Shown in pieces: positions 9,799 to 64,000 of a stretch of DNA of 64,000 nucleotides. The stretch is from the NCBI GenBank assembly GCA_031213475.1, contig JARUPZ010000005.1, positions 8,428,988-8,492,987 of the forward strand, given 5' to 3'. The position numbers were made by a program, and so were the translations under genes. The notes beneath the pieces are model-generated. The model was not told the DNA's origin and made no database searches. It saw nothing but the letters and a program-made list of their open reading frames with translations. This DNA is from Nereocystis luetkeana. Lineage: Eukaryota; Sar; Phaeophyceae; Laminariales; Laminariaceae. Position 1 is the stretch's first letter; every line of letters starts with the position of its first letter.

Positions 9799-9915
9799 TA
9801 TTATGGGGGACCATAGTGAATACCAGGTAGGATCTATGGTACACACAAAAAAACTATATATTCACCCATTTTTACTAACAATATTAGGTCCTGTTTACTA
9901 TGGTCCCCCGTAATA
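9799..9915. mobile_element. family A element, copy 2
   Basis: Full length. Carries TACCAGGTA at 9821-9829 where other copies have only TA (GAATAGGACC). Confidence 0.8.
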
Positions 9916-9955
9916 TTAATACTTATCGTACCAACCCACCTGTGTTGTACGAAGA

Positions 9956-10307
9956 TTGACGTCCGATGCTCAATCGTACCCCCCGCGCCACTACGCCCCC
10001 GCGTTGATGCTCCCTGTGAGTTCCGCTCAAGTGTGCCGCACCATCGCCTCCTTTTCGTATACCTCCTACGCACTGTCCGCACGCTCGTGGGTTTCGTTGA
10101 TGAAGCGCCGCCCCCCCCCCCCCCCCCCCCCCCCCCCCCCTCCCTCCCCCGCCGCCTTATCTTACGGTGTCATCTACGACCACCTCGGCATCGAACAACA
10201 ACTCCCGACAGTTTCTACGAACCACTCCAGTGCTCGCGGCGGCCTCGGGCGCACCAATCTCACGGCCGCTTAAAAGCTCGCAATGGTGCCAACGAGCATC
10301 GGACCGG
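9956..10307 (+). CDS. exon-like segment interrupted by a 30-base C run
   Basis: Upstream of the run (10111-10140) one frame reads DAQSYPPRHYAPALMLP and IASFSYTSYALSARSWVSL. Downstream the coding-like frame is shifted by one (SSTTTSASNNNSRQFLRTTP) and ends at donor CGG|GTGAGG. The shift has the same sense as that in exon 1 of the KH/SAM gene. Unknown family. Confidence 0.35.
10111..10140. repeat. poly-C tract of 30
   Basis: Falls within a coding-like segment, and the coding frame differs on its two sides. Confidence 0.9.
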
Positions 10308-10511
10308 GTGAGGTGTACAACGTCCACCCGTCGAGCTCGCCCACCACAACTTACCCGGTGAACGCCACTACAAGGACTCGCCCCCAGAGACGCGCGCACG
10401 GGTCGGGGGGCCCGCCTTCTGCATCTTCCCCTCACTTTATTCGGGCCCCCCAACGGCGGAAGGCCTCCGACTTTGGACCGTGACCAGTTGGTGTACTGAT
10501 TTTATCGACAG

Positions 10512-61744: not shown

Positions 61745-61750
61745 GCTCCC

Positions 61751-61759
61751 TCAACTCAT
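61751..61759 (-). promoter_or_regulatory. minimal upstream ORF (ATG AGT TGA)
   Basis: A two-codon uORF ends six bases before the main ATG of the KH/SAM gene. In eukaryotes such start-stop-like uORFs can lower initiation at the next ATG. It matters only if the transcript starts upstream of it, which is not shown. Confidence 0.35.
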
Positions 61760-64000
61760 CTACCGCACGACCCAGAGGAGTCGCGCCCTGGTTCGGGGTG
61801 GGAAGCTGAACGAGAAAAAAAGTGATTGCTCTTTTCTCGATCAGACTCTCGGCTCTCGACTCTCTCTATCTCGGTGGCGGGCCGAGGCAGGCGCAAAGCA
61901 ACCAAATTTGTTTGTTTGATTTTCGAGCGTTTTTAGAGGGTTTTGAGGGTGGTGATCTCCTATCTCCGACACCGAATATGTGGAGGCCTGTCTGCTAACC
62001 TTGAGGGTAGACGGGGGGGGGGGGCTTCCTTGGTGGGAGACTGTCCGCCCTAGCGAGGTTGCCCAGGTGTTGTCTCTCGCACGGCCCTCGTCGCCTTGCG
62101 TTTGCTGGTTTGTGGCGTCCGCTCGTGTCGTGTCTCCGTGGCGTGTGTCTTCATGAAATGACGAGACTGCCGCCAAAAATCCCAAAGACCATACTATTTT
62201 TTTATCCAAAAAACAAATGGTTGAAAACTGTTCTTTAAAAAGCTCCGAAAGTGCATTAAACAGCTCAATTTAAGATTTATCTTGTTTTTCATCTGACTCC
62301 AGATATTTGAGATTTTGGATTTTGCCTATTTTTTGCTGGTGCTTTGACTCGGATGCCAGGATTTTATTTCTTGCGTTATTTTTTTGCAAAATTTTCATCT
62401 CGCCCTGCTGCTGTGTCTCGTGTTTGCGGGCACTTTCCTATTTAGACGTTGCTCCTCCTGCTATGTACTACCTGGTACTGTGTAGAGCCACATCCGTCTG
62501 ATGATATGCAGATGCTTTAAAGAGCACCGACTGATTGCATGATGAAACGCACCCCTCTATCTTGACTCACTCAATCACACACGAGCGCACAGCGGTGGGC
62601 AGGCTGGGTGCAATTATACAGAGTTATACCCGTTTTTCCCATTGAATTTCTCGCTGCATTTCAAATTTTCAATTTTTACCACGGTCGAAAAATGTTGTAA
62701 AAAATTGGCTTTCTTCGTTCTATTTGATCGGCTCTATGCTGGACACGAGTGGAGTCGTATCAAATAATCAAAATACGTCGGGGGGCAGATCCACCTATTT
62801 TCGTAGCTTTCTCTTTCCATCGTATAATACTCGTATCATCGTATCATGCCATACCAGAGACTGCGGACTGCGGACACTAAATACTCTGCGGCTCTGCGGC
62901 ATGAACCCAAGGAAGACAAGATAATATAACAGCAGTACGTATGCACTTTGGTATGCATGCAAACAAACGCACAGAAGAAGCAGACAAGACATACCAGCAG
63001 GCACAACACAATAAATTGTACCAGGTACCAGGACCTGGTAGAGGCGATTATAGGTCTCGTGACGGAAAACGGAACACGGAGAGAGAGGGTGGTGCTACTG
63101 TGCGGTGTGTTTGTATCATACGGCGGTGTACGGTGTCTGGAAACCCGAAGTGCGCTCTTTTAGCATCTTCTTTTCTTGCGTACACGCATTCGTTCACATG
63201 TTCATACACCAAAATCATATACCTGGTACTATAATACGTGTCGTGTGTATTATTTGTAAATATTAATATTGTGGGGGACCATAGTTAATAGGATCAAATA
63301 TTGTTAGTAAAAATGGTCAAATTCATGGGGTTTTATGTAATCCGTATGTCCTATTATTAACTATGGTCCCCCGTAATAGTAACAATTATTATTACACCAT
63401 ACCTCACAGCGGTCAGCACCTACCTACTATTAATACCACATCGTCTCTCCTCTCTCTTTTTCTCTGTGATCGTATTCGTACGTACTTCGAAGTATATATT
63501 TCCACCCTAGACTATATACTCTCTCTCTATCATCATCTAATCTGTCTGTGTCTCGCTCTGTTATTTTAGCCTTTGAGTTGTCTTGTCGTCTTCTCTTCTT
63601 CTCCTACTTCCATGCCTGTTGCCTGTGTGGGGAGAGAATGTTAGCCTCCGCTATACGCAGCACCAGCAGCAGCAGTATAGTGTGCTGCCATCATGCATAA
63701 TATATCAGGTAGTATATACCTACCTGGTATAATGTATGCACGATTATAATTACAACGAACGACTATTATTATACGAGTGAGTGAGTAAAGCCAGCGTTTC
63801 CTACTCATAATTCTTTCTTTTACTTCTATCTGTCTGTGTGCTGCCGCTGCCTCTGCCCTGTGTGTCTGTTACTACTATTAATACTACTATACTACTGCTG
63901 CTGCTGCTTGCTGTGGCTTGTCTTTCACTGCCCAAAGGTTGTTGTGGTATAAAACCCCTTCAGAACTAACTGCATGCAGTCAGTAGTTATTAATACCAGG
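61760..64000 (-). other. 5' flank of the KH/SAM gene
   Basis: No convincing coding sequence. The first 150 bases upstream of the start (minus strand) read as a plausible leader with CT/GA-rich stretches. Farther up are AT-rich DNA, one family A element (63267-63378), several TACCTGGTA motifs (62466, 63220, 63724) and CT-rich simple sequence near 63430-63600. No TATA box or initiator can be assigned with confidence. Confidence 0.4.
63267..63378. mobile_element. family A element, copy 20
   Basis: Nearly complete; CCTATTATTAACTATGG has a three-base duplication compared with copy 4. Confidence 0.8.

Follow-up and report, generated by a model that had tools for sequence, protein, structure and literature searches.

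The genome of the kelp Nereocystis luetkeana is strewn with a 9-mer, TACC(A/T)GGTA (the pair TACCAGGTA/TACCTGGTA), that arises by gain of the five bases CCWGG (W, A or T) and a second TA at a single TA. Each copy is probably the excision scar of a TA-targeting, Tc1/mariner-like cut-and-paste element with ends 5'-CCAG(G). We analyzed the word in a 64,000-nt window (assembly GCA_031213475.1, contig JARUPZ010000005.1, positions 8,428,988 to 8,492,987), in a set of sampled loci (numbered with the prefix L) and in the whole genome (465,085,209 bases, 1,987 contigs, with the window at C5:8,428,988).

In the window, 35 exact copies were counted over both strands, compared with a mean of 0.51 and a maximum of 2 in 100 shuffles. 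Another 30 places differ by one base, the A/T swap at the centre aside; the underlying one-off listing has 34 rows, with four places of C/G centre counted double. Genome-wide, there are 182,395 copies (91,240 + 91,155) versus 1,744 (861 + 883) for the reversed pattern, and GTACCAGGTAC occurs 29,254 times versus 174 for its control. Twenty 10-kb stretches taken at fixed positions (one with 2,500 N) contain 66 copies. No other TA-N5-TA word in the window is nearly as frequent; the runners-up, TAGTTAATA (9) and TAGGACCTA (7), also have high ratios, but both are pieces of a repeat termed family A. Leaving aside those in family A, flanks of the 35 window copies share nothing beyond the 9-mer and a base preference. 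The initial annotation had placed the word far above chance and mostly right of 22 kb. The effect proved larger than claimed, 34 of the 35 copies do lie right of 22 kb, and the coordinates given were correct to within 3 bases (36320 is 36322, 52990 is 52992, 55215 is 55214 and 62466 is 62469). Enrichment across the whole genome, whose absence that annotation named as a refutation, is also evident.

Family A is a miniature inverted-repeat transposable element (MITE) of ~120 bp, with 25 copies in the window, some partial (nhmmer). Alignment of these copies revealed two filled TAs. Site 1 (AAATATA-TA-GGTTTT) carries the insert in copy 43668-43808 (9-mer at 43739-43747, plus strand, gapless against other family A copies once 7 bp are removed) and in copy 49519-49617 (49569-49577, plus strand, CCTGG in family orientation). 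Site 2 (GTCC-TA-TTAAC) carries it in copy 9793-9920 (9821-9829, plus strand) and, as a nested double, in copy 46092-46224 (46180-46195, minus strand). These inserts had been ascribed to four different sites, but there are only two: 43739 and 49569 share one TA, and 9821 and the double 46180/46187 share another. At site 1 of a fifth filled copy (57562-57696, minus strand), the insert is the 6-bp variant TACCCTGGTA. Among the sampled loci, L015 repeats the site 1 insert, L027:7218 has inserts at two further TAs of family A, and L027:7444 shows an odd form with no clean insertion. Other forms seen at family A TAs are TACCGGTA, doubles, TACCAGGGTA/TACCCTGGTA and, in one copy (L098), TA-CCAG-TA.

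Paralogues of other motif sites tell a similar story. For 116 sites (window, L001-L006 and L008-L028), the 60-bp flanks joined at a single TA were compared with the unchanged sequence, searching the same DNA. A paralogue spanning the site was found for 21 of the 116, and the form with 7 bp removed fits better in 18 of these 21. The 18 favorable comparisons include unrelated repeats in L005, L009, L011 and L012. Outside family A, the most clear-cut are L005:1502 and the match of L012:7563 to two places in L020. Not all 18 are strong: L023 is a simple repeat, 46180/46187 match another copy that already has one insert, and several need extra gaps. Inserts also lie within simple repeats of the window, at 35825 and at 40233/40256. 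Insertion with TA duplication, as originally proposed, is thus seen both in family A and in unrelated repeats.

Target choice at the sites favors a palindromic, A/T-rich context, in a dose-dependent manner. At 87 isolated sites (174 half sites), W is found 7 bp outside the TA in 84% of cases versus 47% at other TAs. A is enriched at 6 bp (46% versus 23%) and at 3 bp (46% versus 25%), and T adjoining the TA is depleted (7% versus 18%). For the 23 isolated sites of the window, none of 2,000 random draws reached the observed deviation. The scar rate climbs with target score: per 1,000 TAs it is 0.3 in the bottom quarter and 74 among the highest-scoring 3%, a class that includes site 1. Training of the score used these same sites, with nested cases among them, and each site was omitted from its own score. 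The scar T-A-C-C-W-G-G-TA itself matches the left half of the preference, and 16 of the 116 sites are nested, having a TA in common with a second CCWGG. A palindromic, A/T-rich context around TA is a target feature of Sleeping Beauty, and such a context is present at the scar sites here.

Across the genome, 10,618 exact copies have site 1 empty (AAATATATAGGTTTT) and 1,367 have it filled (AAATATATACCWGGTAGGTTTT), or 11.4%. This predominance of the empty state at the best site runs counter to the possibility, raised in the initial annotation, that the insert is ancestral in family A and was lost. Both centre bases occur at this one oriented site. To place fill states on a phylogeny, a quick tree was made from 82 family A copies with inserts removed. 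It includes 40 filled copies, 20 of each centre type, which are a non-random draw (the first ones on contigs C1 and C2). Fill states were read by text pattern, and an insert at a neighboring TA (such as L027:7444) may count as filled. Filled versus empty requires at least 20 changes among 79 rows (shuffled mean 26.6, with 2 of 300 shuffles as low), and CCAGG versus CCTGG requires 15 among 42 rows (shuffled mean 14.2, with 224 of 300 as low). These data indicate that site 1 was filled many times and that the centre base is independent of descent. One-off copies exceed expectation by ~58 places per 101 exact copies (both-strand counts, 210 versus 93.6). This corresponds to ~6% change per base and indicates that at least some scars are not recent. 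Judging from the insertions, they would be younger than their host family A copies.

The variant forms offer a clue to how the insert is made. In the 6-bp class, TACCAGGGTA (CCAGGG) occurs 11,422 times genome-wide (control 409) and TACCTGGGTA (CCTGGG) 1,578 times (control 362). Part of the 11,422 is inherited, in family A copies and in one tandem array. The asymmetry first appeared in a hand count, with 68 CCAGGG and 7 CCTGGG among 100 matches listed, and it is also seen in the sample (9 versus 2, with 0.51 and 0.33 expected). Since slippage would make both forms equally common, simple slippage does not explain the excess of CCAGGG, which points to CCAG rather than CCTG as the end of the element. 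The word TACCATGGTA is likewise enriched (3,002 versus 623 for its control).

These forms fit a footprint of terminal bases left between two TAs; the termini of the parent are predicted. The element would insert at a TA whose surroundings are palindromic and A/T-rich, with duplication of the TA. Upon its exit, the cut would leave 3' overhangs of 4-5 bases bearing the outer bases 5'-CCAG(G). These overhangs could pair with one another except at the centre, where A would lie opposite A, and then be joined. Settling of the central mismatch to A or T would give CCAGG or CCTGG. Pairing shifted by one base would give CCAGGG/CCCTGG, never CCTGGG or CCCAGG, and other trimming might give CCATGG, CCGG or CCAG. 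In Sleeping Beauty, the A/T centre is the outcome of one central mismatch. What such a pathway would account for are the observed insertion, TA duplication, target preference, two centre bases at an oriented site, variant spectrum and asymmetry; the overhang length, mismatch repair and end joining are steps that we infer by analogy. The earlier suggestion of a footprint from a TA-target transposon ending in CCAGG is favored by the variant spectrum in its first part, with the end now given as CCAG(G). Its second part, the autonomous element, was not found and must be deduced.

Several observations weigh against this interpretation. In three of the 21 paralogue comparisons (L004:1502, L021:9110 and L027:7520), the unchanged form fits better. 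CCTGGG, which the model does not predict, is still 4.4-fold above its control. The published overhangs of Sleeping Beauty and mariner, in the portions of those sources available, are 2-3 bases long, which would make 4-5 unusual (PMC3878927, PMC7827188). The centre base at site 1 is uneven, with 67 CCTGG and 33 CCAGG in a hand count of 100 filled places, the first ones listed. On the family A tree, filled copies show some clumping (20 changes versus 26.6), although they were chosen by exact flanks; the clumping may stem partly from that selection and partly from inheritance. Inheritance does occur: seven of 15 places with TTAAATATACCWGGV are family A copies sharing CCAGGG at the same TA, and in two of the seven (L042 and L050) the second TA has changed. 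The remaining points concern the missing parent. No element with TACCWGG ends was seen in the ~325 kb of loci read; these loci were partly fetched for the motif or a transposase domain, and most span 3-10 kb, from which a longer element would escape. We also read 35 places at which TACCWGG and then a non-T base come after the target context (all 15 of TTAAATATACCWGGV and 20 of the 295 of AAATATATACCWGGV). Thirteen of these belong to family A and have scars in variant or decayed form, with no element in any of the 13. The remaining 22 are in other sequence, and the 100-165 bases read there are too short to judge. Domain searches for mariner- and Tc1-type transposases gave no match to PF01359 or PF13358, with PF01359 detected in none of the controls, PF13358 in 3 of 14, and introns hindering the search. 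PF03184 gave 28 matches genome-wide; in two of these loci, each read over 9.5 kb, no inverted repeat around the domain exceeds 14 bases. With zero seen, parent copies detectable by these scans would number fewer than ~4,300 genome-wide (rough 95% bound).

Neither the window nor the ~325 kb of loci yielded an inverted repeat starting with TACC, TACCAG or TACCTG and having plausible boundaries, and several candidates for the parent were set aside. The loci L037 (C1:8,316,001-8,325,500) and L038 (C35:5,107,501-5,117,000) have open DDE_1 (pogo/jerky-type) reading frames, possibly domesticated, and were rejected as the parent because no inverted repeat in them exceeds 14 bases. The word TACCAGTGTAAATA was discarded as a terminal inverted repeat, all seven full-word places being in the tandem repeats of L022. 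For the TACC-ended inverted repeats in L005, L015 and L021, similarity continues past the TA. The TACCCTACCTGG repeat (L008, L031 and L020) is dispersed, and its similarity extends upstream too, while the four TACCTGGTGT half sites of the window have no common sequence beyond the word. CCAGGCA pairs in L006 and L016 resemble decayed footprints, and a reversed-sequence control scored higher. Two pairs of split family A/B copies were considered as interrupted by the parent; the causes were a poly-T element and family B. A scan for a family B word in viral contigs gave 0 matches.

The absence of a parent from the DNA read, including the 13 family A copies at the target site, would suit a process of direct micro-insertion, in which palindromic, A/T-rich TA sites are cut by an enzyme that duplicates the TA and adds only five bases, with no long element ever present at the site. 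Scars do greatly outnumber detectable elements, and the insert is itself a near palindrome. Yet the variant spectrum (CCAGGG far above CCTGGG, together with CCATGG, CCGG and CCAG) is the outcome expected if two identical overhangs pair out of register, and micro-insertion needs an extra assumption to explain it; we regard it as unlikely. A related idea, also without a long parent, is that a transposase-like, perhaps domesticated, enzyme makes paired cuts at preferred TAs and leaves 5-6 bp end sequences in a 'touch-and-go' manner. If so, the micro-inserts, by matching the left half of the target preference, would attract the next insert. This, too, seems quite unlikely.

Could the word instead have spread only by hitchhiking inside larger repeats, such as a subfamily of MITE A? 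The shared CCAGGG of the seven copies above, some clumping on the tree, and a tandem array with TACCAGGGTA mostly every 528 bases are what this would predict. However, window flanks outside family A have no common sequence beyond the target preference, inserts occur in unrelated and simple repeats, different TAs of family A have been hit separately, and the A/T centre does not track the family A tree. Hitchhiking as the sole explanation is therefore very unlikely. Selection that maintains or generates a protein-binding or chromatin motif would agree with the near palindrome and with an A/T preference about one helical turn from the centre, but is hard to reconcile with an exact 7-bp gain and TA duplication in MITE copies and simple repeats, a rate that climbs with target score, and the commonness of decayed and variant copies; we consider it highly improbable. 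In Paramecium, TA-bounded internal eliminated sequences (IESs) are removed in large numbers from the somatic nucleus, leaving a single TA. A similar but scar-leaving programmed removal from the sequenced tissue would explain many scars with no resident element in the DNA read, but unlike the Paramecium case TA-CCWGG-TA remains here, and the scars, decayed by ~6% per base and in one instance inherited through family A copies, are old and germ-line, making this equally improbable.

The excision-scar reading invites comparison with known transposon footprints. The Sleeping Beauty footprint is listed as C(A/T)GTA in the accessible part of one source (PMC3878927), and such footprints are described, in an excerpt of another, as arising by joining of 3' overhangs that carry the element end (PMC7827188). 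As far as these sources extend, the kelp insert resembles those of Sleeping Beauty/Tc1 in its TA target and duplication and in its quasi-palindromic form with an A or T centre. It differs in having five bases (CCWGG) instead of three, in its shifted 6-bp and other classes, in its ~182,000 copies in one genome and in being known from scars alone. In the available listing of the Mos1 tribe of mariner, most 5' inverted terminal repeats begin with CCAGG (PMC3419177), like the end predicted here. Unlike in Mos1, the next bases (TGTAC) are absent after TACCAGG in the window, and PF01359 has no match (weak controls). In Sleeping Beauty and mariner, by the excerpted account, the nick lies three bases inside (PMC7827188). 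For Stowaway MITEs in Triticeae, the part of the report at hand describes several footprints of short terminal-inverted-repeat fragments between TAs at one site, with repeated gains and losses (PMC1925063). Several distinct footprints at one site are a shared feature; those of Stowaway, in the same portion, come from one intron across many species with TACTCC-type ends, whereas here a near-uniform word is found genome-wide. MITEs are defined, in the text available, as non-coding, 100-600 bp long and bearing terminal inverted repeats (PMC4495683), and the insert, with only 5-6 bp plus TA, is not one. Insertion at TA with TA duplication, a trait of IS630-Tc1-mariner elements, is displayed by the scar and not by an intact element. 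The scar would function like a Tc1/mariner footprint, but we do not assign its source to that family. A repeat survey of Ectocarpus counts 17 Mariner-Tc1 families, and the word 'footprint' is not in its main text as accessed (PMC12477816). In one open literature library we found no report of the 9-mer as a genome-wide scar, and the 9-letter matches listed look like chance (primers, barcodes). Separately, TACAGTA/TACTGTA, the word of a Sleeping Beauty-type footprint, occurs 98 times versus 35.6 expected (2.7-fold; L009-L028 without L022, plus the window), perhaps as scars of a second element.

Putative TACCAGGTA footprints are found in the window beyond those in family A described above. On the plus strand, they lie at 30245-30253, 31079-31087, 32857-32865, 35825-35833 (within a (TA)n run, left flank TATATATA, right flank TATATTAG), 45642-45650, 52992-53000 and 55214-55222 (adjoining CGTACGTAC); those at 54127-54135 and 63019-63027, also plus, each have a second CCAGG across their TA. 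Minus-strand copies are at 22415-22423, 25020-25028, 31882-31890, 34404-34412, 36187-36195, 37115-37123, 38003-38011, 43800-43808 (at a family A copy edge), 62469-62477, 63220-63228 and 63721-63729. Pairs occur at 36308-36330 (36308 minus and 36322 plus, five bases between), 40233-40264 (40233 and 40256, minus, in a TACG-type simple repeat), 43485-43508 (43485 plus and 43500 minus, close together) and 56580-56599 (56580 minus and 56591 plus, in TACGTA), and a nested pair, TACCAGGTACCTGGTA, at 57690-57705. The first part of the window (1-22414) holds one of the 35 scars, though its TAs per 8 kb (391-415) are similar to those elsewhere (326-486); gene content, chromatin or selection may underlie this scarcity. 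Locus L022 (C4:2,000,001-2,010,000), made of TACTACTA-type tandem repeats with a G+C of 0.41 and many TAs, has zero scars.

Other repeats were noted along the way. Family A copies (for example, 21579-21708) have ends TTACGGGGGACCATAG with TA at both edges and apparently form a TA-target family of their own. Family B (for example, 45149-45247 and 44999-45109) is a near-palindromic MITE of ~100 bp with TTAACCC ends. One of its copies has split a family A copy (44956-45155), which suggests a piggyBac-like family with TTAA as its target. At 53737-53921, a unit headed by poly-T (GCTCATCCCA...) interrupts another family A copy; the unit is present again in L059 and, lacking its poly-T, in L061, and is perhaps a retroelement resembling short interspersed elements. 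The window also contains a tandem array of a CACCACGATCGTTTT-type unit (28016-28670) and a long CAGA microsatellite (11747-12136). The scar-carrying array with TACCAGGGTA mostly every 528 bases (8 places) is at G000 C1:1,304,145-1,308,353.

Work on transposon footprints usually deals with only a few of them, to judge from the literature cited here, and in this genome there are ~182,000 of near-uniform form, which would amount to ~1.28 Mb of inserted bases if each scar is a 7-bp gain. With MITE families alongside as internal controls, target choice, end joining, mismatch resolution and transposon age can be read from the scars alone, even with the parent unfound. Repeat finders built for long units would probably miss such scars. 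More generally, a short word that a genome contains in excess need not be a binding site and can instead be the scar of a transposon.

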